From assembly GCF_025639885.1 (NCBI RefSeq), contig NZ_CP106739.1:1-64000 (forward strand): a stretch of DNA of 64,000 nt, given 5' to 3'. A program made the translations under genes and the position numbers. The notes below the pieces were generated by a model. The model was not told the origin of the DNA. It saw only the letters and a list, made by a program, of their open reading frames with translations, and did not search any database. The stretch is from Roseovarius pelagicus. Lineage in GTDB: Bacteria > Pseudomonadota > Alphaproteobacteria > Rhodobacterales > Rhodobacteraceae. Each line of letters begins with the position of its first letter. Position 1 is the first letter of the stretch. Of this stretch, positions 1 through 11,784 are shown piece by piece.

Positions 1-1
1 C

Positions 2-334
2 GGCTTCGGTTTCGCAGACGATCACATCAGCGCCCCGATTTGGTCAGCCATCGAAACGAACCTGTCGCTGCGCCTTGTCCTTTGTGATCGCGGGTTTGTG
101 GAGCATCAAAAGCTCTTCGATGAAGACGCGCAGGAGATCGACCTCGATCTGGCTGGGCAACGTGCTTACCAGAGCAAGATCGCGCGACTTGTGCAGCAGG
201 GCGATACGCGCATCACGATGTTGAATGGCCGCTTCGAAGACCTTGCCGACGCCTTGCCGATGATATCGGGCAAGACGGATCGTCAGCTCTTGCAGGATCG
301 GCTTGAAAAGCTGCGCGAGGGCGACGGCGCATGA
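2..334 (+). CDS. SIR2-like protein, C-terminal part (5' end outside window)
   Basis: The frame is open from the first bases of the window to a TGA at 332-334, so only the last ~110 residues of a longer protein are seen. The segment starting GFGFADDHI resembles the end of the Rossmann core of SIR2_2-type NAD-dependent enzymes, where a (Y/F)GxSFxDxHI motif is common, and is followed by a helical tail. The stop overlaps the HerA start by four bases (ATGA), indicating one operon and translational coupling. SIR2 next to HerA is a known antiphage pair (SIR2-HerA) in which SIR2 degrades NAD on infection. The assignment rests on a short fragment plus its neighbour; the catalytic Asn/His region lies outside the window. 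Confidence 0.55.
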   Translation, partial: GFGFADDHISAPIWSAIETNLSLRLVLCDRGFVEHQKLFDEDAQEIDLDLAGQRAYQSKIARLVQQGDTRITMLNGRFEDLADALPMISGKTDRQLLQDRLEKLREGDGA

Positions 335-2142
335 GCGAACTTGCCTCTCTGATCGACCCGTCCAAGCGCATCGGAACGGTTACAAGGGTGACGGCAAGTG
401 CCGTTGAACTCACTTTACCGAATGCTCTTGCAGCCCTCGGACGGCGCGGGCTGGCGAAGGGTTCGGTTAGTGATTTCGTGTTTGTCGATTGCGACCGCTC
501 AGCGATCTTGGGGCGCGTGACTGAGGTCGGCATTCCCGACAGGCAGCGAAATGTCCTTGAGCATCAAATCGAAACCGATCCCACGGTAGAGCCGCAAGGG
601 CGCGTCCAGTTGCTGGCAACCGTAAGCAAGACAACTCGGAAAGTGACGCGCGGTATCAACACTCAGCCAAGGGTCGGTGATGGGGTCTACCTCGCAGAGG
701 GCGGAGCGCTATCCAATTCCATCAAGGATGCCTTGGAAGGCGACGTGAAGGGAGACGGCGCACCGATACTTGTTGAGCTGGGGCACCTATCCGGGCTGGA
801 TGATGCCGCCCTTAGCATTCCGCCGGAGAAACTGTTCGGTCGTCATTGCGGAGTATTTGGTGCGACAGGCGGGGGGAAGAGCTGGACGGTTTCCCGCCTC
901 GTCAATGAGATCGTGCGTATAGGTGGCAAGTGCATTCTGTTCGATCCAACGGGAGAATTCGCAGGAAAGGTAGCCGCCGCACGGGAGTTTGAGTTCTCAA
1001 ATGACCAAGCGGCTGAAGGCCGCTTGGCGCGGTTTCCGAGTGAGAAGCTGTCCGAGCTTGACCTGAACGCCCTGCTCAGACCAACCGGGCAAAGCCAAGG
1101 CCCCACTCTTCGGAGTGCGATTATCAGCTTGAGACTGGCTCGACTGCTGTTGGCAGACCCAGTGCGGTTTCCGCAGCATGCCGTCGAAGGCAGCGATGCT
1201 CTTCGAATAGAAGTTCAACACAACGACCAAACAGTCGGCTTCATCCACCTTGACGAGAACAGAACTGTTTCGAAAGCAAACCAACAGAGGAAGCCGCTTG
1301 GTCGCGTTCAGCTGATGCTAGCCGATCAGTTGGCGGCAGATGACTGTGACTTCGATCTCAAAGTGCTTTCCAACCAAATTGGCAAAGAGTGTCTGTTCCC
1401 GGCTAACACGGACGGCACATTTGGCGGGGTAGACCCCAAGCAAGTAGGTTACAACAATACCTTGGTTATTCGGATCGAGACGCATTTGAGCTCTCCTGAT
1501 ATGTCATGCTTCTTTTCTCAAGAAGGCTTGGATATATGCGAAGAAATCGAGGGGTTTCTTGATGATCCAGCTGCGAGGGCTTTGGTGCTTTCATTCGAAA
1601 ACGTGAGCTTTAAGCACAATGCGCGTGAGTTGCTACTGAACGCTATTGGACGATATCTGCTTGGCATCGCACGGCAGGGGCGTTTTCGACAAAATCCGCT
1701 TGTTTGCTTCTTGGATGAAGCTCACCAGTTTATTGGCCGGTCTGTCGGCGATGACCAGAATAGCGTTAACCTCGATGCCTTTGGCCTCATCGCCAAGGAA
1801 GGCAGGAAGTACGGACTGACCACCGTTGTCGCGACGCAGCGTCCCAGAGATGTGCCACAGGATGTTCTCAGTCAACTTGGAACCCTTTTTGTACATCGGC
1901 TAACCAATGAGCGAGACCGGGAAACCATTGAAAGGGCATGCGGTGATCTTGATCGCAGCGCCGCTGCCTTTATCCCGTCTCTATCACAAGGCGAGGCGAT
2001 CATTGTCGGCCCCGATTTACCCGCGCCGTTGCCGATCATGATGAGCAAACCCGAAAAAGGTCAGCAACCAGAAAGCCACGGCCCGAAGTATCAGGAATTT
2101 TGGGGCAAAGCCGAAGCAGCCCCATTGACCGAAGATTTCTGA
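331..2142 (+). CDS. herA: HerA/DUF87-type hexameric ATPase (SIR2-HerA defence partner)
   Basis: A 603-residue protein. The N-terminal ~165 residues look like the HerA beta-barrel (HAS-barrel). Walker A is GATGGGKS at 177-184, Walker B is CFLDEAH at about 459-465, and the late segment TQRPRDVPQDVLSQ plus TNERDRETI matches the arginine-finger/sensor region of HerA/FtsK-like translocases. Family role: a hexameric DNA-translocating ATPase which, in defence pairs, assembles with SIR2 or a nuclease. The start overlaps the SIR2 stop by 4 bp, and the reverse transcriptase begins 21 bp after its stop. HerA with NurA in DNA repair is the alternative, but NurA is absent and SIR2 and RT are the neighbours. 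Confidence 0.85.
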   Translation: MSELASLIDPSKRIGTVTRVTASAVELTLPNALAALGRRGLAKGSVSDFVFVDCDRSAILGRVTEVGIPDRQRNVLEHQIETDPTVEPQGRVQLLATVSKTTRKVTRGINTQPRVGDGVYLAEGGALSNSIKDALEGDVKGDGAPILVELGHLSGLDDAALSIPPEKLFGRHCGVFGATGGGKSWTVSRLVNEIVRIGGKCILFDPTGEFAGKVAAAREFEFSNDQAAEGRLARFPSEKLSELDLNALLRPTGQSQGPTLRSAIISLRLARLLLADPVRFPQHAVEGSDALRIEVQHNDQTVGFIHLDENRTVSKANQQRKPLGRVQLMLADQLAADDCDFDLKVLSNQIGKECLFPANTDGTFGGVDPKQVGYNNTLVIRIETHLSSPDMSCFFSQEGLDICEEIEGFLDDPAARALVLSFENVSFKHNARELLLNAIGRYLLGIARQGRFRQNPLVCFLDEAHQFIGRSVGDDQNSVNLDAFGLIAKEGRKYGLTTVVATQRPRDVPQDVLSQLGTLFVHRLTNERDRETIERACGDLDRSAAAFIPSLSQGEAIIVGPDLPAPLPIMMSKPEKGQQPESHGPKYQEFWGKAEAAPLTEDF

Positions 2143-2163
2143 TCAAAATAGTAGGAAGTATTG

Positions 2164-3627
2164 ATGTTCGATTTCTACTCAGCTGACTATCGTCGAATGC
2201 TTTTCCCGATGTGGACAAACCGCTACTTGATCGAAAATGGTCAAGCCGAGATTGCCGAGTTTTTGAATCGTTGCCTTGATCCCGATCAGGAATCTTTTTC
2301 ATTCCGTTCGCAAACCAGGGTTTATGCCGGCAAGCCCGGTTTTCACCTGAGGCGAACCGTTAAACTGGACCCTGTGGCGGAGTATTTTATTTACGATCTC
2401 GTCTTGCGAAATAGAATCCGCTTCAGAGCGCCCTACCACGAGCACAAGAAGCATTTTGGCTACCGCTTTCAAGATGGTGAGCCACTCAATCCTTCGGGAT
2501 CATATCGAGGATATAAGGGGGCCATTGCTGCGTATCGAGATCAATTCAGATACAGCTTGAGCTTCGATGTCGCTGCTTATTTCAACTCAGTTTACCACCA
2601 TGACCTCGTTTCTTGGTTGTCCAGAACCGGAGCATCTGAACAGGATTACCAGGCGTTTGGTCAGTTTCTTCGGGAAATAAACACGGGGCGGTCAGTCGAT
2701 TGTCTGCCACAGGGCATTTACCCAACGAAAATGATAGGCAACGATTTTCTCCGTTTTGTCGAGCAGTTTCACGGATTGCGCAGCAATGCGGTTGTTAGGT
2801 TTATGGACGATTTTGTACTTTTCTCCGACTCGCGGCGTGATCTTCGTCATGACTTCATTACGATCCAGCGCTTGTTGGGTGAGAAAGGCCTTTCACTGAA
2901 TCCAAACAAGACCAGTGACGGAGTGCGGGAGAACGTTGAACTTGAGGATGCGATCGAAGACGTAAGGATACAGCTACTCCAAAGACGGCGTGTCGTTATC
3001 ACCGACTATGATGGTATTCCCGATGAAGAGGTCGAAGTCGAACAGGATTTGTCGGATGAAGAAATGGGTTTTCTGCGAGGCCTACTACAACAAGATGATA
3101 TCGAAGAAGAGGACGCAGAGCTCGTGCTGGCGTTGATGGCAGAGCATGCCGAAGAAGCGATTGACCGTCTTGCAGACATAGCGCGTCGCTTCCCACACCT
3201 ATTCAAGAATATTCACTCATTTTGCCGTGAGGCGGAAGACGAGGAAGCCATAGCCGCATTCGTCTTGGAACTACTTCGTGACAATGACGCGATGATCTAC
3301 GAGTTTCAGCTTTTTTGGCTGACCCACATTCTTGAAGATCGGCTTCTGAACACCAATTCAGCGGCAGAGATCATAGACAGGCTGAACAATCATCCAAACG
3401 CCACATCGATATCAAGGGCTAAACTCCTCGAAATACCCGACTTGAGGTACGGTTTAGTAGAGCTTCGCGACGCCCATTTGGGTGCTGGGCAATCCGATTG
3501 GTTGTCCTGGTCTAGCGCGGTCGGCCACAGAGGATTGAATAGAATCGACCGCCGTCACAGATTGGGTTACTTTGCCAAAGCTTCAAACTACAACAAGCTT
3601 GTGTTTGACATAGTGTCGAAGGATTGA
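2164..3627 (+). CDS. Reverse transcriptase with acidic/helical C-terminal domain (defence-type RT)
   Basis: A 487-residue protein. RT motifs in order are: SFDVAAYFN with catalytic Asp135; LPQGIYPTK (182-190), the motif B equivalent; RFMDDFVLFS with FMDD at 213-216 in place of YxDD; then LSLNPNKT (about 244-250). The C-terminal half (about 255-487) has a strongly acidic stretch (about 285-320) and helix-rich sequence resembling the alpha-helical repeats of Abi/UG-type RTs; I recognise no nuclease motif in it. ATG 2164 is chosen because AGGAAG lies about 5 bp upstream; a TTG sits one codon earlier. The 21-bp gap after herA leaves no room for a retron msr-msd RNA there and I see no VTG retron motif, so a DRT/Abi-like RT is more likely. 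RT activity is inferred from motifs. Confidence 0.8.
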   Translation: MFDFYSADYRRMLFPMWTNRYLIENGQAEIAEFLNRCLDPDQESFSFRSQTRVYAGKPGFHLRRTVKLDPVAEYFIYDLVLRNRIRFRAPYHEHKKHFGYRFQDGEPLNPSGSYRGYKGAIAAYRDQFRYSLSFDVAAYFNSVYHHDLVSWLSRTGASEQDYQAFGQFLREINTGRSVDCLPQGIYPTKMIGNDFLRFVEQFHGLRSNAVVRFMDDFVLFSDSRRDLRHDFITIQRLLGEKGLSLNPNKTSDGVRENVELEDAIEDVRIQLLQRRRVVITDYDGIPDEEVEVEQDLSDEEMGFLRGLLQQDDIEEEDAELVLALMAEHAEEAIDRLADIARRFPHLFKNIHSFCREAEDEEAIAAFVLELLRDNDAMIYEFQLFWLTHILEDRLLNTNSAAEIIDRLNNHPNATSISRAKLLEIPDLRYGLVELRDAHLGAGQSDWLSWSSAVGHRGLNRIDRRHRLGYFAKASNYNKLVFDIVSKD

Positions 3628-3769
3628 GTGGGCCTTTAGGGTTCACCTGAATTTTTGATATTGTCAGTATTACCGAATTTTGTACAGCGTCCGCTCTGGG
3701 GAAGCTGCGTCGCACACCTGACTAAATCGGCAAAGTCCGCTACAGGCCGACCACGTCGGGCGTACTGCT

Positions 3770-4369
3770 TCAATCCAGATCGACGTCGCCGATGCGCGGC
3801 GCATGAACATGCGTCCGGACAAGCAATGCAGCGGCCGCGCCCGCGAAAGCGCCGAACAGATGAGCCTCCCACGAGACGTCAGGCTGACCCGGAAGAACGC
3901 CCCAGAGAATAGAGCCGTAGAGGACACCGACCACCAGTGCCGCGCCCAGCGTGATCAGTGAGCGATCCACGAGGCCGCGCGCGACGAGGAAGCCAAACCA
4001 GCCGAAGACGAGCCCTGACGCGCCGATATGGATGGCCGAACTTCCGAACAGCCAGACAAGACCGCCGCCGAGGCCGATCACGATGGTGTTCACAGGCAGC
4101 AAGGCCCGCGTGGTGGTGGCCACCAGCAGCCCACCCATCACCAATAGCGGCGGCGTATTGGCCATAAGGTGCGCGAAGCTTCCATGCAGTAGGGGCATGG
4201 CGATGACACCATCCAATCCGCTTACGTGCCGGGGGATCAGGCCGAAGGCCGGGTTCAAGCCGTAACCGATAATCCAATTGAGGAGGTGAGCCGCCCAGAG
4301 CAGTGCAACAAAGGCGACAAGCGCCGCGGTGCGCAGAAAGAAGGCACGCATGTGATCCCGGTTAATCAT
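3770..4369 (-). CDS. Rhomboid family intramembrane serine protease
   Basis: A 199-residue, very hydrophobic protein with about six membrane segments. The rhomboid catalytic serine motif IGASG is followed by a glycine-rich helix (LVFGWFGF), and the catalytic His is in EAHLFG near the C terminus. An [10 protein letters not shown] segment matches the conserved HxxxxHxxxN helix of the family. Rhomboids cut transmembrane substrates within the membrane; the substrate is unknown. The ATG at 4369 (MINRDHM) is chosen as the first Met before the first membrane helix; no strong ribosome site is visible, and an upstream in-frame ATG at 4462 would add 31 polar residues. It is convergent with the RT gene. 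Confidence 0.85.
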
Positions 4370-4499
4370 GCTGGCAACAGTAGACGTCCCCACAGCGCCT
4401 TCAACGGCTTTCGCGCGCTGCACAGGGTGCCACCTTTGGGAAAGGGGGTTTGAGGCGGCCAACCTCGGTACGGCTCAAGCCAAGAAAATGGCCTCGATC

Positions 4500-5036
4500 T
4501 TACACGGTGTTCCCCGGGCGAAAGGGCTGCGGTTCACGCTCGGGGCGCTTCAGGGCTTCGGCGTATTTGCGGGCATTGTCATCAATCGTGTCGTGCCAAA
4601 GCTTCGAGACGAAGGCCCGGGCGTCTTGGACCGTCATGTCTTTCAGCGAAGAGGACAGCGCCATGAAAAGCTCATCCTCACTGATCGCAGCGGCATGGTG
4701 CATGGCGTCCGCGTAAAATGACGGGTCGTTAAGGACCTGCTCGCTCAGCGGCATCCGCGCGAGGTTCTCTTCTGGGATCCCCATGAAGATCGTGTCCTGC
4801 AGGTCGGTCAGATACGCACGCCGCGAGGTGGACACCGGCTTTCCTGCTGCCTTGGCGTCCAGATACGCCTGCAGGTTCTTGTCGAGCTTTGCCCTTGCAT
4901 GGGTCATGATGACTTCACGCTTTCGGGCGGGTAGCGCGAATCCGGTGCAGCGCTCGATATGGGCGAGGAGATCTTCAACCTCTGCCTCAACATTAAAGCT
5001 CTCGAACCATGGAACCGTCCCTGATCTAGCCGCCAC
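4500..5036 (-). CDS. Conserved hypothetical plasmid protein
   Basis: About 178 residues from a GTG at 5036 preceded by a GAGGGCGGG stretch; an upstream ATG (5150) would add a segment that runs through the terminator of the next gene, so I prefer GTG. The protein is soluble, helical and charged, with no signal peptide and no recognised catalytic motif. It contains an HARAKLDKNLQAYLDA helix and ends PFRPGNTV. It lies between the rhomboid gene and the DUF736 gene on the same strand. An AT-rich stretch just upstream (5045-5085, including a TACAATAAT run on the minus strand) may hold its promoter. Function unknown. Confidence 0.6.
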   Translation of the reverse strand: MAARSGTVPWFESFNVEAEVEDLLAHIERCTGFALPARKREVIMTHARAKLDKNLQAYLDAKAAGKPVSTSRRAYLTDLQDTIFMGIPEENLARMPLSEQVLNDPSFYADAMHHAAAISEDELFMALSSSLKDMTVQDARAFVSKLWHDTIDDNARKYAEALKRPEREPQPFRPGNTV

Positions 5037-5129
5037 GCGCCCGCCCTCGATATTTCGATAATATATTATTGTATCGCATTTGCACCTGATCGCAAGCGGG
5101 TGGCGTCCTTCACGCAAACGGACATGGAA

Positions 5130-5161
5130 AAAGGGGAACCGTGATCCCACGGTTCCCCTTT
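5130..5161 (-). terminator. Rho-independent terminator of the DUF736 gene
   Basis: A perfect inverted repeat AAAGGGGAACCGTG with four loop bases. On the minus strand the second arm runs into five or more T residues. It sits about 30 bp after the stop of the DUF736 gene at 5193. Confidence 0.85.
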
Positions 5162-5192
5162 GGGTTCAGATCGTCTCGCCCTCGCGTGCCAA

Positions 5193-5921
5193 TTAGGCGA
5201 CCAACGACAGCCCCGTGCCTGCGTCCTGCGGCTGCTCACCGCTGTCGATGAACGGGATGATCGAGAAGGTCTGCCCGCCGCGCTGTTCTTCGTTCTGCAC
5301 GGCGTTCACGCGCAGGTCGCCATCGGGCGTGTTGATCAGCAACGACAGGTAATCATTGCCCGTGCGGCTGCTTTTGGCCATCCACGCCGAGCCGACGCGG
5401 ATCGGTGTGCCCCGAGGCGAGCTGACCTCGATGCGGTAATCGGGGTGGGTCTCCTCGGATTTGTAGCTGTTCTCGATCAGCATGAACTCCAGATCGAACA
5501 TCATGTTGGCGATGTAGCCCGTGAAGGCGTTGTCAGCATCCATGGCGGTGAGCTCGCCCGAGATCGAGCCGGATTTCATCAGGCCGTTCGAGACCAGCGG
5601 GATGATCTCGAACGCGCCGCTCTGGGCCGATCGCGCCTCTTTCGTCTGCACCGCGTTGACCCGGAACGGACCCAAGCCGACATCGATCTGCATCGAGATG
5701 TAGGGGTTGCCGCTAGTATTGCCGGTCTCGTTCCAGGCTGTGCCGATGCGCACCTTGCGGCCTGATTTGTTGACTGCCGTCACGTCAAAATCCGGGCTGC
5801 GTTCGGACATCTTGGCCCGCGCCTCCAACTGGATGGCGATGTCAAAGCGCGTCGAGTGGATCATGCCGGTGTACTGAGCGGCTGCGGTCTCGACATTGCG
5901 GGTGAGGGTTCCTGCGAACAT
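5193..5921 (-). CDS. DUF736 protein with two tandem DUF736 domains
   Basis: A 242-residue protein from ATG 5921, preceded by AAAGGAA; the open frame extends to 6005, but MFAGTLTRNVE is the natural start. Two copies of the same domain are visible. The first (about 1-115) has VRIGTAWNETG, ISMQIDVGLGPFRVNAV and IIPLVSN. The second (about 118-240) has IRVGSAWMAKSS, LSLLINTPDGDLRVNAV and IIPFIDSG. DUF736 is usually a single ~100-residue domain common on alphaproteobacterial plasmids and integrative elements, and its function is not established. A copy of the shared GTGAAAGC-type motif lies about 90 bp upstream (6011-6032). Confidence 0.85.
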   Translation of the reverse strand: MFAGTLTRNVETAAAQYTGMIHSTRFDIAIQLEARAKMSERSPDFDVTAVNKSGRKVRIGTAWNETGNTSGNPYISMQIDVGLGPFRVNAVQTKEARSAQSGAFEIIPLVSNGLMKSGSISGELTAMDADNAFTGYIANMMFDLEFMLIENSYKSEETHPDYRIEVSSPRGTPIRVGSAWMAKSSRTGNDYLSLLINTPDGDLRVNAVQNEEQRGGQTFSIIPFIDSGEQPQDAGTGLSLVA

Positions 5922-6010
5922 GGGATGGTTCCTTTTGGATTGGCCGGTGTCTGACGTCCTTGCCAGCGCATCCGGGATTGCTTTCTCGACCCCTTGAGGG
6001 ATCACAAATC

Positions 6011-6032
6011 AGAAAGCTTGCTTTCCTTTCAG
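6011..6032 (-). promoter_or_regulatory. Shared upstream motif, copy A
   Basis: On the minus strand this reads CTGAAAGGAAAGCAAGCTTT, a diverged version of the motif whose best copies are at 11723-11746 and 21071-21092. It lies about 90 bp before the DUF736 start codon. The role (promoter or operator) is inferred only from its repeated position. Confidence 0.5.
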
Positions 6033-6045
6033 CCCCGCCCACAGG

Positions 6046-6348
6046 TCAGAGCTGCCGTCCGAGTGGGAATGCCCCCGCGCCTCCTGGTGTTACGCCCCTC
6101 CCCTGCCCGTCTGGTCTTGATTGGCTGCCCGGACTTTCTGCGGCGTCCTTCGATTGCGCGACGAAGAACTCCGTTTCTTTTCCGTTCAACCGTTGCACGC
6201 TCCGGTCTGTCAGGCCGATGCAGCTACCATTCGGCACATAGATGATCAGGTACTGACCGACCCGGTCCTTGTGGACAACATAGCCGGTATTGGCCCAGTG
6301 CACGGTCTGCCCGGCATCAACGGCCGCCTTGATATCATCGAGTGTCAT
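6046..6348 (-). CDS. Hypothetical plasmid protein (100 aa)
   Basis: Start ATG 6348 is set by AAGGAGGATCC immediately upstream; the open frame continues to 6423 through a terminator, so the longer form is unlikely. The protein begins MTLDDIKAAVDAG and has a hydrophobic core (YLIIYVPNGSCIGL), then a glycine/proline-rich tail that looks disordered. It is soluble with no recognised motif. It lies between the DUF736 and DUF6915 genes in the same direction; the hairpin at 6388-6413 separates it from the latter, so it may have its own promoter. Confidence 0.6.
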   Translation of the reverse strand: MTLDDIKAAVDAGQTVHWANTGYVVHKDRVGQYLIIYVPNGSCIGLTDRSVQRLNGKETEFFVAQSKDAAESPGSQSRPDGQGRGVTPGGAGAFPLGRQL

Positions 6349-6387
6349 GGGATCCTCCTTAAGAAGAATGGTGGGGAAACGACGCAA

Positions 6388-6413
6388 GAAGCCCGATCTT
6401 CCGACCGGGCTTC
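6388..6413 (-). terminator. Rho-independent-like terminator after the DUF6915 gene
   Basis: An inverted repeat with arms GAAGCCCGATC / GACCGGGCTTC around a TTCC loop, followed by a short T-containing tract on the minus strand. It lies 36 bp beyond the stop at 6449. Confidence 0.65.
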
Positions 6414-6448
6414 CGTGCGGCATTCGTTTGGCAAACGGCCGAGACCTG

Positions 6449-6910
6449 TCATGCGCTTTGCGTGGCTTGGATCGCGCGCGACGCCATCCAATCCTTCAGG
6501 CCAAGAACCGTTCTGCCGGCGGCGACCTCGGAGGCCCAGGCAACCCTTGGGTCGCCGCAGGGCTCGGAGCCGACATGCCGGTCGATGTGGCCATTGGCCA
6601 TCCATGGCTCGGGCTGGATCCGTCGCAGCCAGTCCGCCATGCTCGGGATACGTCCCTGACAGTCTTCGCGGACATGCTGCTCGCCGATCCAACGCACGGG
6701 AATGTCCCGACCTGCGCTATTGGTCAGGGTCAGGCCGAAGACACGTTCAGCCTCAAACAGGCCTTGGGCATGATGGCGCATGGCTCGGTGCGTGAAGAGC
6801 GCGAGGTGCTCTTTCGAGGCGTCAAACCAATCGTGCACAGCCTGATAGTCAGACGGCACCCCGCCGAATTTCCGGGCAGAGCTTTCAGCATGATGAAGCG
6901 GATGGGCCAT
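6449..6910 (-). CDS. DUF6915-type plasmid protein
   Basis: A 153-residue protein from ATG 6910 (MAHPLHHAESSARKFG), with GAGGG about 10 bases upstream. It is rich in His, Trp and Arg; the segment HDWFDASKEHLALFTHRA followed by HHAQGLFEAERVFG is typical of a family I know as DUF6915, always found on plasmids or genomic islands. It has no membrane segments and no known activity. The start lies 1 bp after the stop of the DUF6878 gene, so the two are probably co-translated. The conserved His-rich N terminus could bind metal, but this is a guess. Confidence 0.7.
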   Translation of the reverse strand: MAHPLHHAESSARKFGGVPSDYQAVHDWFDASKEHLALFTHRAMRHHAQGLFEAERVFGLTLTNSAGRDIPVRWIGEQHVREDCQGRIPSMADWLRRIQPEPWMANGHIDRHVGSEPCGDPRVAWASEVAAGRTVLGLKDWMASRAIQATQSA

Positions 6911-6911
6911 C

Positions 6912-7298
6912 TCAAAGACCCTCGACATAGCTGTGCGAGCATTCGACATAGCGGTCCGCGTGATCGAGGGTGATGCTGTCGCCGGTGATGTCCCAGGTCA
7001 GCGTGCCGTAGCCGCCCTCGTTGTTTTCGAACCCCGGGTGATGGTGATAGGCGAGCGACCAGGCGAAATCGCCAACCTCTGTGGCAAGCGGTTCCGGCAG
7101 TTGGACCTCTGCAGGCTGCATCGTGACATCCTCGACATTGCCGGAGTCGCCATAGCCTTCGTATTCGGCAGTGACCTCGCTGATGCCAAGCGCACGTAGT
7201 TGCGCGAGCAGCTCCGTTCGAGATGCCTTCAAGGTGGTTTCGCGCTCTGCACGCCACTGAGCCGCCATTGCGGCATAGTCGATCTGGGGATTGGTCAT
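6912..7298 (-). CDS. DUF6878-type plasmid protein
   Basis: A 128-residue protein from ATG 7298, preceded by GAGGACAGACCC. The conserved centre includes AEYEGYGDSGNVEDVT and AYHHHPGFENNEGGYGTLTWDI, a distinctive pattern I associate with DUF6878 on alphaproteobacterial plasmids. It is acidic and soluble; function unknown. It is first of a two-gene unit with the DUF6915 gene. Copy B of the shared upstream motif lies 103 bp before the start, overlapping the stop of the preceding methylase/helicase gene. Confidence 0.7.
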   Translation of the reverse strand: MTNPQIDYAAMAAQWRAERETTLKASRTELLAQLRALGISEVTAEYEGYGDSGNVEDVTMQPAEVQLPEPLATEVGDFAWSLAYHHHPGFENNEGGYGTLTWDITGDSITLDHADRYVECSHSYVEGL

Positions 7299-7400
7299 GG
7301 GTCTGTCCTCTTGTCTGAATTTGGGGGGCCGGGCGTGGCACTGGTCAGAGCGCGCCCGGAAAGCGCAGACCGGCCAAACCCCGATCCGCGACGCTCGACC

Positions 7401-7423
7401 AGAAGCCCGCTTTGACTTTTCAG
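7401..7423 (-). promoter_or_regulatory. Shared upstream motif, copy B
   Basis: The minus strand reads CTGAAAAGTCAAAGCGGGCTT. It overlaps the stop codon of the methylase/helicase gene and precedes the DUF6878 start by about 100 bp. Confidence 0.6.
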
Positions 7424-10400
7424 GCAGCTTGTTCTGCCGCTTTGGTGGTTCCCTGCCCAACGATCCGGGCCAGAATGCGGCCCGTGTCGATCCCGTCCCC
7501 ATGCGGCAGGAACACCCGCAACTGGAAGGCGATGATCTCCGTGAAACACCCCATGGCCTTGAGACCTTCAATCATGCCCCGATCCGCACCGCCCAGCTCG
7601 AGACGCATCTCGCCTGCGACCCGGCGACGGGTCAGGGTCAGACCCCGGCCCAGATCGACAGGCGCGGTGGTGCCGAGGGCGGCGGTGAACATCTCCTGCG
7701 GCGTTTGCGGATTGGAGACGAGGAAGCGGGCGCGCAGCGCGGCCGCCCCTTCTTCGCTCAGCGTGCGCCCGATCATGGCGGTCGCCCCGTCCGGCGTGAC
7801 GCGGTAGATACGCTCATTGGTGGTCGGAATGTCCTTCCAGATCGGCAGCAGCAGCCCAGTCAGCAGGTAAAGCTTGGTCGTGGTGGTTTTTGGCAGGGAT
7901 GCAGCCTCGGCATCCCAAAGTCCTGCAAACTCGGGCCTGTTGATCTCTTCCCAGGCCGAGGACTCGAACCGCGTCTCCTCTAGATAGCTCGACCCGTTTG
8001 GCCGCACCGCCTTGCGCATCAGCGTAACGATGTCCTCGTCATACATCTGCATGGGCCGCGCCGAGATGAGCGCCGCGCGACCGGAGGCGCGATTGACCAT
8101 CGGCGGCTTGTCGGGGTTGCGCGATAGGGCGTCATCCGCCGACAGCACGTGGACCGGGTCCGTCACCTCAAGTCCGATGATCCGCGTCACGGCGCCGGAT
8201 TTCGGGCAGGTCCAGAGATCCTCTGTGGAGACCTGTTCGATCTTTTCGCCGCGCAGGGTTTCCACGCCGAGATCGAGCGTGCCCGCCGCCCGCGCGCGCT
8301 CAGACTGATCGGCAATCCGCCTCATGAACTCGGCAAAGAGCGCGTTCTGCATGTGGATGGGAAGGGCAAGCACCCGATTGAGAAACCGCTGGATCGGAGG
8401 CAGCTCCTCGAGCAGCACACCGTCCTTGTCGATCAGTCGCAGGGCTGTCCAGTCGGTGAAGCTCTCGCAGCTCATCGCCTCGGCGCGCCCGGCGGCAAGA
8501 TCGGCATAGTAGCCACGCAATGCCGCCCGCGCGATCGGGCTTTCGAGATTGTCCTCCTCGCGGAACATGCCCTGCGAGCCGGTCTCGCGCTGACCCTTGG
8601 TCAAGGCCCCCAGCTGGTCGAGGCGTTTGGCAATCGTCGACGTGAAGCGTTTCTCGCCATGCACATCGGAGGTGCAGACACGGAAGAACGGCGCGCTGAC
8701 CTGGGCAGAGCGATGCGTGCGGCCCAGCCCCTGGATGGCCGCATCCGCGCGCCAGCCGGGCTCCAGAAGATAGTGCCGCCGCCGTTTCTGGTTCTTCGCC
8801 GTTTGCGCCGCGTGATAGGACCGGCCCGTCCCGCCCGCATCGGAGAAGATCAGGATATCCTTCTCACCATCCATAAAAGCTTGGGTCTCGGACGAATTGC
8901 TGCTGGCGGCGCGCTTCTCGATGAAGAGATGACCATCCTCAGCCTTGAGGGGCCGGATGGACCGCCCCGTGACTTCTGCCACGGCCTCGTCGCCAAAGGC
9001 CCAGAGGATCTGATCGAGCGCCGAGGGGATCGGAGCCAGCGTCATCAACTCCATCATGGCCGCATCTCGCAAAGCGAGCGCCTCGCGCGAGACGACCAGC
9101 GCCCCGGTCTCATCCCGCAAAGGTTCCGCCACCATATTGCCGTCGATCTCGACCAGCTTTTGCGCATGGATCGGGAAGGCCTGTTCGAGGTAGCCCAGAA
9201 CATAGTCGCGCGGCGTCAAGGCCCCCTCAACGAGTTCATCCTCCGGGTCCATCGTCTCAAGTCGGCGTTTGAGCAGGCTCTCACCTGTCGAGACAACCTG
9301 GATGACGCAAGCCTTGCCCGCCGCCAGATCGTCCTCGATGGCGCGGATAATGCTTGGAGCCTTCATGCCCATCAGAAGATGGTTGAAGAAGCGCTGCTTC
9401 GTGCTCTCGAAGCGGGACTTGGCCGAGGCGCGTGCGGCCGAGGCATTGGTCTCGCCCGAGGCATCGTTGACGCCGGTCGCAGTCAACGCGGCTTCGAGAT
9501 TGTGGTGGATCGTCCGAAACGCACCCGCATAGGCGTCGTAGATCTCGATCTGGGCAGGGGTGAGCGCGTGTTCCAGCACATCGTATTCCACGCCATCAAA
9601 ACTGAGGGCGCGGGCCGTGTAGAGGCCGAGCGTCTTGAGATCGCGCGCGACCACCTCCATGGCGGCCACGCCGCCGGCTTCCATCGCCGAGACGAAACTC
9701 TCGCGGCTTGGGAAGGGGTATTCAGGCCCTTGTCCCCAGAGACCGAGACGCGCGGCATAGGCGAGGTTGTGCACGCTGGTGGCACCCGTGGCCGAGATGT
9801 AGAAGACGCGGGCGCGCGGGGCAGCGAGTTGCAGCCGGAGGCCAGCAAGGCCCTGCTGCGAGGGTTTGACCCCCCTGCCCTGCTCGGACCCCGCCGCGTT
9901 CTGCATCGCATGGGCTTCATCAAAAGCCAGCACGCCGTCGAAGTCTTCACCCATCCAGTCGAGGATCTGGCTCAGTCGCGTGGTGCCGCATTTGCCCGCG
10001 GAGCGCAAAGTGGCGTAGGTCACAAAAAGGATGCCGTCGCCCATCGGGATGGACTGGTCCGGTTTCCATTTGGAGAGCGGCTGGATGTCGGCGGGCGAGC
10101 CGCCAAGATCAGTCCAGTCGCGGATCGCGTCCTCGATAAGCGTGGCGGATTTGGAGACCCAAATCGCCTTCCTGCGCCCGGCCAGCCAGTTTACAAGGAT
10201 GAGCCCCGCGCATTCGCGCCCCTTGCCGCAACCGGTGCCGTCGCCGAGGAAATACCCGAGGCGATAGGGACACGCATGCGGGTCATCATCGGCGCGCGTC
10301 AGCTTTGTCTGGTCGTCATCGATGGTAAAACGCCCCGGCAAGTCGCGCCCATGGGCATCATTGGCCATGATGATGGTCTCGAGCTGCGCCTCGGAGAGAT

Positions 10401-11682
10401 GTCCCTCCTCGATCAACCGGGCGGGCAGGCGCAAGTCATCACTGCGCGTGTTTGAGGGCATGGGCGGGGCAACCGAGGCCATGGCGATGCTTTCAACTAG
10501 CGGCGTGGGATGTTCCTGCGCGCCTGCGATCTCAATCCGCTGCGGACGGTAGCGCGCATAGATGTCCGAGATGGGCATGTTGTCGCGCGGGGTCTGAAGG
10601 CTTGTGAAGCTGAGCGGGACAACGGCCTTGGCCCGGGGTTTGGAGGGGGTGACAGGCGCAGCGGCGGCCTTGCGCGGGGCAGATGATGGAACGCTCGACC
10701 GAGTATGAGGGATCGCTGCCGCCCGTTGGACTGGGCGCATCTCGGTCCGGGTTGCGGCCACGGCATCGACATATGCCAAGGCTTCATCCAGATCCCGCAC
10801 AGGGACGCGGATCATCTCGCCGTCCTCCTGCACCTTGTCGAAGACCATCAGCTGGGTTTCGACAGAGGTGCCGAGCTTGCGGTAGACCTGCCCCGGCATC
10901 GTCAACGCCAGTCGCGGCGTCAGGAGACCGCAGGCGCGGGACCAATGCGCGGCATCGCGTTCGGGCGTGAATCCTGGCGGCATGATCGCCACCAGCCGCC
11001 CACCTGGTGCCAGGCGCTTTGCAGCCGCAATGAGATGTTTGGCAGCGATGTGCTTGTCCCGGGAGCGGTCGACCGAGGAAGCGAAGGGCGGGTTCATCAC
11101 CACGACCTCGGGCAGAACGGGCGTCTGCAGCAGATCATCGATATGCTCGCCGTCATGGCCTGTGACCTCGCCGCCGAAAACCGCGCGCAGGAGGCGCTGG
11201 CGAAAGGGGTCGATTTCATTGAGCACAAGCGTGGCACCGGCCCGGGCAGCGAAAGCGGCCAGGGCACCGGTGCCCGCCGACGGCTCCAGCACGGTCTCAC
11301 CCTTGCGGATCGCCGCGGCCCGCAAGACCAGCGCCGCGAATGGCAGCGGCGTGGAAAACTGCTGCAGCCGGATCTGGTGCTCGGAGCGGCGGGTTTCCGT
11401 CAGCAGCCGCGAGGCAAGCAGCTTTGCAGCGGCGATGTCATCTGCCGCGCCGTCCCCACGCAGCAGCACCTGAACAGCCGCGGCCTGCATCAGGTCATAG
11501 GCTATGCGCCAGTCCCAGGCGCCACCGGCATCGCTGCCATGAAACGTCTCGCGCATGATGCGCGCCAGCGCTGAACTGCGCAGGGGTTGGTGGTCGACCT
11601 CCGCACCGATCTGCACGAGGGCAGAGGCGAGATCGGCTTCGGAGATTGCGAGAGCCGGGTTGGCCGTTCTGGGTTTGGACAT
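7420..11682 (-). CDS. Strawberry-notch-like helicase fused to N6-adenine methylase (DarB-like)
   Basis: A 1420-residue protein from ATG 11682, preceded by AAAGGAAAA (an upstream in-frame codon at 11724 lies inside the regulatory motif). The N-terminal methyltransferase has LEPSAGTGALA (SAM motif I, about 132-142) and NPPF (197-200), as in N6-adenine DNA methylases. A Pro/Ala-rich linker (about 320-370) leads to a superfamily 2 helicase domain with GDGTGCGKGR (about 480-489), DEAH (587-590) and a late TGRSYHAAQ-type segment typical of strawberry-notch proteins. Methylase+helicase fusions include phage P1 DarB, which protects incoming DNA from type I restriction, so an anti-restriction role is plausible. 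It probably acts on DNA in the cytoplasm. Motif copy C lies 41 bp upstream. Confidence 0.85.
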   Translation of the reverse strand: MSKPRTANPALAISEADLASALVQIGAEVDHQPLRSSALARIMRETFHGSDAGGAWDWRIAYDLMQAAAVQVLLRGDGAADDIAAAKLLASRLLTETRRSEHQIRLQQFSTPLPFAALVLRAAAIRKGETVLEPSAGTGALAAFAARAGATLVLNEIDPFRQRLLRAVFGGEVTGHDGEHIDDLLQTPVLPEVVVMNPPFASSVDRSRDKHIAAKHLIAAAKRLAPGGRLVAIMPPGFTPERDAAHWSRACGLLTPRLALTMPGQVYRKLGTSVETQLMVFDKVQEDGEMIRVPVRDLDEALAYVDAVAATRTEMRPVQRAAAIPHTRSSVPSSAPRKAAAAPVTPSKPRAKAVVPLSFTSLQTPRDNMPISDIYARYRPQRIEIAGAQEHPTPLVESIAMASVAPPMPSNTRSDDLRLPARLIEEGHLSEAQLETIIMANDAHGRDLPGRFTIDDDQTKLTRADDDPHACPYRLGYFLGDGTGCGKGRECAGLILVNWLAGRRKAIWVSKSATLIEDAIRDWTDLGGSPADIQPLSKWKPDQSIPMGDGILFVTYATLRSAGKCGTTRLSQILDWMGEDFDGVLAFDEAHAMQNAAGSEQGRGVKPSQQGLAGLRLQLAAPRARVFYISATGATSVHNLAYAARLGLWGQGPEYPFPSRESFVSAMEAGGVAAMEVVARDLKTLGLYTARALSFDGVEYDVLEHALTPAQIEIYDAYAGAFRTIHHNLEAALTATGVNDASGETNASAARASAKSRFESTKQRFFNHLLMGMKAPSIIRAIEDDLAAGKACVIQVVSTGESLLKRRLETMDPEDELVEGALTPRDYVLGYLEQAFPIHAQKLVEIDGNMVAEPLRDETGALVVSREALALRDAAMMELMTLAPIPSALDQILWAFGDEAVAEVTGRSIRPLKAEDGHLFIEKRAASSNSSETQAFMDGEKDILIFSDAGGTGRSYHAAQTAKNQKRRRHYLLEPGWRADAAIQGLGRTHRSAQVSAPFFRVCTSDVHGEKRFTSTIAKRLDQLGALTKGQRETGSQGMFREEDNLESPIARAALRGYYADLAAGRAEAMSCESFTDWTALRLIDKDGVLLEELPPIQRFLNRVLALPIHMQNALFAEFMRRIADQSERARAAGTLDLGVETLRGEKIEQVSTEDLWTCPKSGAVTRIIGLEVTDPVHVLSADDALSRNPDKPPMVNRASGRAALISARPMQMYDEDIVTLMRKAVRPNGSSYLEETRFESSAWEEINRPEFAGLWDAEAASLPKTTTTKLYLLTGLLLPIWKDIPTTNERIYRVTPDGATAMIGRTLSEEGAAALRARFLVSNPQTPQEMFTAALGTTAPVDLGRGLTLTRRRVAGEMRLELGGADRGMIEGLKAMGCFTEIIAFQLRVFLPHGDGIDTGRILARIVGQGTTKAAEQAA

Positions 11683-11722
11683 GGGGATTTTCCTTTGGAT
11701 CAGGGTCTGAGTTCCAAAGGAC

Positions 11723-11746
11723 AAAAAGCCCGCTTTCGCTTTTCAG
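11723..11746 (-). promoter_or_regulatory. Shared upstream motif, copy C (best copy)
   Basis: The minus strand reads GAAAAGCGAAAGCGGGCTTT followed by TTGTCC. It lies 41 bp before the methylase/helicase start. With copy E it defines the consensus GAAAAGYGAAAGCGGGCTTT. Confidence 0.65.
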
Positions 11747-11784
11747 GGTGGCGGGGTCAGACCGCGCTGACCTCCAAGGCTTGG

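Follow-up and report, generated by a model that had tools for sequence, protein, structure and literature searches.

A recurrent SIR2-HerA-DRT5 operon on a plasmid of Roseovarius pelagicus, a candidate three-gene antiphage cassette

Described SIR2-HerA (Nezha) systems, according to the sections of PMC11559045 that deal with them, hydrolyze NAD+ and require both proteins. DRT5 is presented in excerpts of PMC13213688 and PMC13314766 as a phage-resistance type of DRT without an established mechanism; its other name, UG16, comes from a part of PMC7699616. Protein-primed synthesis is reported in a portion of PMC13275509 for “DRT5S/DRT5L,” whose identity with UG16 is unconfirmed, and that report is not used as evidence here. 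The DNA analyzed in this work comprises the first 64,000 bases (hereafter, the window) of the 168,062-bp contig NZ_CP106739.1 (C3) of Roseovarius pelagicus, whose 4.27-Mb genome is assembled in 3 contigs; at its left end, a SIR2-like gene and a gene for a HerA-type ATPase are followed by a gene for a DRT5-type reverse transcriptase (RT). With DRT5 an already known type that mostly occurs without SIR2-HerA, and SIR2-HerA a known pair, the joined operon looks like two known systems. In the literature searched, no paper mentioned Drt5 together with HerA, and titles and the beginnings of abstracts gave no description of SIR2-HerA-DRT5, which does not establish absence from print. The designations DRT5S and DRT5L may stand for the small and large variants of UG5.

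The initial annotation of this locus had described three plus-strand genes, with an ATGA overlap between the first two, a 21-bp gap before the third, and the motifs of the ATPase and the RT, and this layout was borne out at the positions given. The C-terminal frame of SIR2 (positions 2 to 334) overlaps that of HerA by 4 bp (331 to 334), and the ATG at 2164 is a more likely RT start than the TTG at 2161 (488 aa from TTG). The 5′ part of the SIR2 gene, absent from the window, was obtained from the far end of the same contig (stretch L012); it is in frame with window base 1 across the contig ends, and the joined open reading frame (ORF) encodes 458 aa without a stop. Because DNA similarity to a Thalassovita locus (L015), whose SIR2 gene is uninterrupted and 98% identical, runs across the join without a break, the join is natural and the contig circular. 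The naming of the pair as SIR2-HerA also held, the two overlapping genes matching the PADLOC models for SIR2 (PDLC04075; 221.7 bits for the N part and 34.8 bits for the C part) and HerA (PDLC04103; 485 bits). The HerA protein, with a GATGGGKS Walker A motif, matches HerA chains in PDB, and SIR2 retains the GSGAS, TTNYD (N223), and KLHGS (H283) motifs, the latter two in the region alignable to the SIR2 chains in solved structures of SIR2-HerA complexes (8yhx and 8j4u; L015 protein as the query). N223 and H283 would be the catalytic NADase residues, judging from the motifs rather than from an alignment with the named Asn and His of the SIR2-HerA in PMC11559045.

The RT, previously treated as an unclassified type, is assigned to DRT5/UG16 by its profile scores: 685 bits against the NCBIfam model Drt5 NF041750 (cut-off 550), with residues 5 to 487 covering model positions 1 to 484 of 484, and 683 bits against the PADLOC Drt5 model. 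Its catalytic residues D136, D216, and D217 (numbered from the TTG) are invariant in an alignment of 62 rows. The C terminus had been called acidic and helical, and the helical part of that description agrees with a structural model (predicted local distance difference test score, 86.4) in which residues 299 to 485 form a run of helices; “acidic” on its own is incomplete. The model matches the folds of DRT6, DRT4, and AbiK over nearly the full length (Foldseek, VIA-align 2), whereas RT domains of other kinds, such as that of a group II intron (Z score of 17.6), score similarly but align over just 240 residues; the comparison is less well tested past residue 388. Such a fold suggests template-free DNA synthesis. 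An earlier idea that the RT provides guides for SIR2 was abandoned, as family scans showed none of the three genes to be an Argonaute or another guide user.

The three genes recur together. Among 78 DRT5 loci (72 genome, 4 viral, 1 further genome, and 1 plasmid locus; the flanks of several are short, and one RT is common to L058 and L087), SIR2 lies upstream of DRT5 in 6 and HerA is adjacent in 9. The order SIR2-HerA-DRT5 is found in L013, L015, L016, L017, L019, and L118, and the trio, its gene order unchanged and its junction homologous, is present in several genera and contexts (Thalassovita, Puniceibacterium, Leisingera, Phaeobacter, uncultured Roseobacter, and L118). Two of these loci, L015 and L016, share the Roseovarius plasmid backbone, and L013, L017, and L019 match only over the trio. 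As L013 and L017 have a common gene downstream of the RT, the contexts of the trio number four or five. On the Phaeobacter inhibens plasmid L013, HerA is split into two frames and the trio lies between Tn7-like transposition genes; L118 lacks the SIR2 start and has a transposase-like frame alongside and no backbone genes near. A gene of the HsdR_N/STAND type in L013 (M624; L013:5713-8589) overlaps the SIR2 start by 4 bp, making a four-gene run. The run begins in the same way in P. inhibens strain 2.10 (L014), but its HerA is truncated next to an IS481 gene, and the listed genes include no DRT5.

The borders of similarity are given here in joined coordinates (JOIN; L012 from base 2001 followed by window positions 1 to 8000), which place the SIR2 start at 6958 and the RT end at 11627. 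The match to L019 spans 6836 to 11679, that to L017 spans 6931 to 11750, and that to L013 spans 6985 to 11742, each with interruptions within SIR2 or HerA. Between HerA and the RT, the six aligned trio operons have a homologous junction, being either 21 bp or, in L013 and L017, a one-base TGATG overlap. Relative to the Roseovarius RT, synonymous and nonsynonymous divergence (dS and dN) are 1.13 and 0.031 for L019, 0.79 and 0.029 for L118, 0.23 and 0.009 for L017, and 0.25 and 0.014 for L013. The RT is under purifying selection, with a dN/dS of ∼0.03 at a dS of ∼1. A recent random insertion of the RT was considered and rejected, since the RT dS values for L019 and L118 (1.13 and 0.79) are comparable to those of the C-terminal part of HerA (1.75 and 1.03). 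The trio is one unit, not an accident.

The same borders emerge from plasmids that lack the trio. The backbone common to 11 related plasmids (the best-ranked of lists of 236 and 166 records) stops at JOIN 6803 to 6821 (L012:8803-8821) in all 11 and resumes at JOIN 11732 to 11766 in 8 of them, the right flank lying further out in the other three; the slot thus delimited holds the trio and little else. The similarity of L019 ends within ∼15 to 90 bp of these borders, and that of L013 and L017 ends within ∼25 bp of the right one. Flanked by a DUF2493 gene on one side and a rhomboid gene on the other, this slot belongs to a widespread conjugative plasmid of Rhodobacterales (MOBP, MPF_T) and holds other genes in each of the 11 relatives. 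In L107 to L114, the slot proteins (one or two each) all match PADLOC defense models of six or more kinds: retron-type RT and ThsB, CBASS cyclase and phospholipase, ThsB, IetS, IetA, and GajA, the weak matches being E1-like and OLD/GajA-like; the content of L115 to L117 was judged by annotation and Pfam only. More than one system is sometimes present (L108 and L110). The plasmid slot that carries the operon swaps defense systems across Rhodobacterales.

A survey of the family, 394 genomes including that of R. pelagicus, found HerA matches in 9, six of them at full length. DRT5 adjoins the full-length HerA in three of these (G000, G665, and G643; G665 is probably the same genome as L015) and does not in the other three (G568, G779, with 336 bp of contig left downstream, and G533), which are counted against coupling. 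DRT5 matches were found in 6 of the 394 genomes, namely, G000, G665, G643, and three at 52 to 56% identity; the two of these three that were inspected (L122 and L123, which probably correspond to L020 and L024 at the genome level) have no HerA beside DRT5. In the first search for relatives of SIR2 and HerA, the Roseovarius proteins served as queries. For five more distant plasmid-borne SIR2-HerA pairs (40 to 46%), no RT is listed directly downstream (their gene tables are incomplete, and the DRT5 search found none in the records); one of the five, L126, has an RT gene more than 3 kb upstream on the opposite strand. A close SIR2-HerA relative without DRT5 (L119:7175-8479) has a gene of the metallo-beta-lactamase fold 58 bp downstream of HerA. 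No DRT5 match was found in the phage records searched. DRT5 is also carried by a Cupriavidus plasmid (L131), and a further set of RTs (P0005 to P0022) shows 68 to 78% identity.

Viewed from the RT side, the association extends beyond the trio. HerA profile matches were found in 9 of the 78 DRT5 loci (1,175 kb of flanking sequence), and all 9 adjoin the RT and are codirectional with it, with gaps of at most 107 bp when the frames are measured from stop to stop (the probable RT start of L037 sits ∼100 bp deeper in its frame). A comparable adjacent codirectional position is held by 22 of the 431 flanking ORFs of at least 300 aa. The chance of such adjacency is ∼7e-6 with four lineage representatives, an optimistic figure because L035, L037, and L082 may have one origin and L086 has only an RT remnant, and ∼0.003 with two safe lineages; both figures depend on a greedy ORF caller and the choice of representatives. 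The HerA profile excluded L035, L037, L082, and L086 and included P0121 and P0156 of the trio clade, and the SIR2 profile held the Roseovarius and L086 SIR2 proteins, so the trio loci themselves are no blind test. SIR2 is the partner of HerA in six loci, and no SIR2 profile match was found in L035, L082, and L037. In these Rhizobiales loci, HerA lies directly downstream of the RT (L035:3498-5531 and L082:11488-13518) or upstream of it (L037:7632-9803) and has a hydrophobic N terminus, as judged by eye. The L035-type HerA has 71 homologs at an E value of 1e-20 and no match in plasmids or in 385 genomes of the class. In a quick RT tree (no mixture model, broken RT frames represented by their longest piece, and 10 loci skipped), the RTs of the trio fall into a single group of nine with full support, of which eight are labeled HerA adjacent and one is a truncated RT (L018); two of the eight labels (Aliiroseovarius P0002/P0156 and P0003/P0143) derive solely from RT and HerA contigs of equal length.

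Among the neighbors of DRT5 outside the trio, 85 of 112 were scanned (27 were omitted by eye as likely spurious ORFs), with L013, L015, L016, L017, L019, L058, and L087 set aside along with ORFs shorter than 120 aa, longer than 3600 bases, or more than 600 bp away. HerA-type models (HerA and mad8) were the only ones to match more than one neighbor, namely, four (among the 25 of 128 families with the most members); single neighbors match HamB, DpdF, GajA, PsyrT, mREase_IV, or HNH models, once each per model, several models sharing one name. In Paenibacillus (L074:7366-9903), a HamB-like (Hachiman) gene lies directly upstream of DRT5, and in Loktanella (L021:11596-13374), a gene whose start resembles an OLD-type ATPase (by eye) lies ∼140 bp downstream of it. 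Microbulbifer agarilyticus (L086:6854-10312) carries a SIR2-HerA pair assigned to a different PADLOC subfamily; after the pair comes a C-terminal DRT5 remnant of 69 residues, for which the Thiorhodococcus RT was the closest (77%) of six compared. The locus was dismissed as proof of an independent trio, as RT residues 420 to 488 alone remain.

Two segments of the SIR2-HerA pair stand out by their divergence. HerA residues 211 to 455 are only 45 to 57% identical to those of L019, L118, L119, and L124, compared with 90 to 98% for residues 1 to 210 and 456 to 580, and SIR2 residues 101 to 205 (L012:9258-9572) are 43 to 47% identical to those of L013, L017, and L124. The two segments change independently of each other and of the presence of the RT; they look like exchanged recognition segments and are candidates for phage recognition. 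Coevolution of the central HerA allele with the RT was rejected, the same allele (95% identical) being found with the RT in L019 and without it in L119. The HerA proteins of RT-bearing operons share the tail LTE(D/E)(F/S), which has drifted in L017 and is absent from the three RT-less relatives compared.

We favor, with confidence that is about evenly balanced, the reading that this is a plasmid-borne three-gene antiphage cassette, one operon and one inherited unit with two abortive arms. The SIR2-HerA arm would sense infection and hydrolyze NAD+, by analogy with the described Nezha system. The DRT5 arm, going by its modeled fold, may be a DNA polymerase like AbiK, DRT4, and DRT6, oligomeric and template free, that would make protein-linked single-stranded DNA, toxic once a phage factor stabilizes it. 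Both arms would stand under one promoter, each able to act alone, and together they would be harder to escape. The composition of the operon, its intact motifs, its recurrence as a block, the purifying selection on the RT, and the RT fold are the observations from which this reading starts; co-transcription, NADase activity, the DNA product, the abortive outcome, and additivity are what we infer. The earlier proposal that the RT belongs to the same system as the pair is favored by recurrence, by the trio being the sole cargo of the slot, and by selection, and it is weakened by the three of six full-length-HerA genomes (that of R. pelagicus included) without the RT. It had also been anticipated that the RT might recur alone in a known DRT type, and this is partly so: the type is DRT5, and 69 of its 78 loci have no adjacent HerA. 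Several points weigh against two additive arms. HerA adjoins DRT5 beyond positional chance in nine of nine loci, which speaks for coupling rather than addition; the HerA type is alone in matching more than one neighbor outside the trio; and the RT fold gives nothing certain on product or template.

Coupling is the substance of the main rival, a possible but tentative account in which protein-linked single-stranded DNA made by DRT5 is loaded or sensed by the ring of HerA, a member of a family of DNA-translocating ATPases, and gates the SIR2 NADase (or a membrane HerA elsewhere), DRT5 being the sensor or signal maker and SIR2 the effector. The nine codirectional adjacencies, against 22 of 431 ORFs in such a position, the constancy of DRT5 and HerA while the further partner varies, the shared HerA tail, and the TGATG overlap in L013 and L017 are consistent with it. 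They are countered by the 69 loci without adjacent HerA (some with short flanks), the central HerA allele that occurs both with and without the RT, and the other defense genes beside which DRT5 is also found; besides, sharing of the tail may reflect simple DNA linkage, the L086 remnant may be an insertion scar, and L035, L037, and L082, which lie near each other in the RT tree, may share one origin. The wider proposition that DRT5 and HerA-type ATPases are a recurrent functional pair, with DRT5 writing untemplated protein-linked single-stranded DNA and the HerA ring reading or translocating it and gating an effector (the SIR2 NADase here and the membrane HerA in Rhizobiales), is a rather doubtful one. 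If true, it would make the trio, within the literature searched, the first system with a SIR2 NADase under the control of an RT product.

At the other extreme, two independent systems could merely stand side by side in a defense hotspot, hitchhiking with no selection for the combination. Hotspots do stack systems, as the slot does in L108 and L110, and the DRT5 of L074 directly downstream of a HamB-like gene, like the assorted models matched by single neighbors, fits such passive stacking. We nevertheless regard it as unlikely, given an association as old as a dS of ∼1 that was kept through recombination of SIR2 and HerA in several contexts and given the conserved HerA-RT junction. That the RT belongs to a retron, or works from an RNA template lying in the operon itself, is very improbable. 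In favor of this reading, the RT neighbors a likely NADase, and a portion of PMC10952713 describes some retrons as paired with TIR effectors. However, the retron St85 RT model scores 14.3 bits (cut-off 235) compared with 685 bits for DRT5, and the nearly full-length fold match is to DRT4, DRT6, and AbiK. The initial annotation had already taken the 21-bp gap to exclude a retron RNA directly upstream, and Rfam, searched at gathering thresholds over the window and L012, gave no match. The retron reading was rejected on the family score and the Rfam result, which leave room for an unknown RNA inside a coding frame.

The recurrence of DRT5 with HerA offers a concrete partner candidate for DRT5. 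Should HerA-SIR2 be gated by the RT product, NAD+ depletion would be triggered by untemplated DNA synthesis as a signaling step; if there is no gating, the operon would be a clean natural case of two defense systems in one mobile cassette. The features of the locus are listed in Table 1.

Table 1. Coordinates of the operon and adjoining features in the window
Feature	Position	Strand	Comment
SIR2-like gene, C-terminal part	1..334	+	Gene of 458 aa in all; start at the other end of the contig, L012:8958-10000
HerA-type ATPase, 603 aa	331..2142	+	Walker A 177-184, DEAH 462-465
HerA hypervariable segment, residues 211-455	961..1695	+	Candidate phage-facing region
HerA-RT spacer, 21 bp	2143..2163	+	AGGAAG ahead of the RT start
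DRT5 (UG16) reverse transcriptase, 487 aa from ATG	2164..3627	+	Asp135, FMDD 213-216, helical C-terminal region
Terminator-like stem-loop immediately 3′ of the RT, ending in a T-rich tail	3628..3646	+	Weak: scan total of 4 such sites versus 5.5 in shuffles
Cargo-slot right border	3732..3766	.	Plasmid backbone returns here in 8 of 11 related plasmids
Rhomboid protease gene	3770..4462	-	Right flank of the slot; backbone, outside the cassette

Among the systems to which this operon can be compared, the one on the Celeribacter indicus plasmid pP73B occupies the same slot and places an RT next to a TIR-type gene, but that RT matches the PADLOC RT_VI model (285 bits) and no DRT, and its partner is TIR/ThsB, not SIR2-HerA. 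DRT4, DRT6, AbiK, and AbiP2 resemble the RT over its full length in combining the RT fold with a helical C-terminal region, yet they belong to other families, with 10 to 14% identity to it. To DRT5 (UG16) it has a full-length match above the curated cut-off, and the difference lies in the setting: DRT5 counts as a single-gene system, whereas on this plasmid it comes third in a SIR2-HerA operon. Like Nezha, the operon has a SIR2-like gene followed directly by an overlapping HerA gene, with the motifs of both kept. HerA falls far under the NCBIfam cut-offs (126.8 versus 800 bits for NF042943 and 89.9 versus 850 bits for NF042944), and the SIR2 equivalog NF042942 scores 13.9 versus 500 bits, on a 110-residue C-terminal part only; by the two HerA scores, the HerA is of the same kind as the HerA_antiphage equivalogs and of another subfamily. 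The operon further differs from Nezha in having a third gene and in the hypervariability, between operons, of HerA residues 211 to 455 and SIR2 residues 101 to 205.

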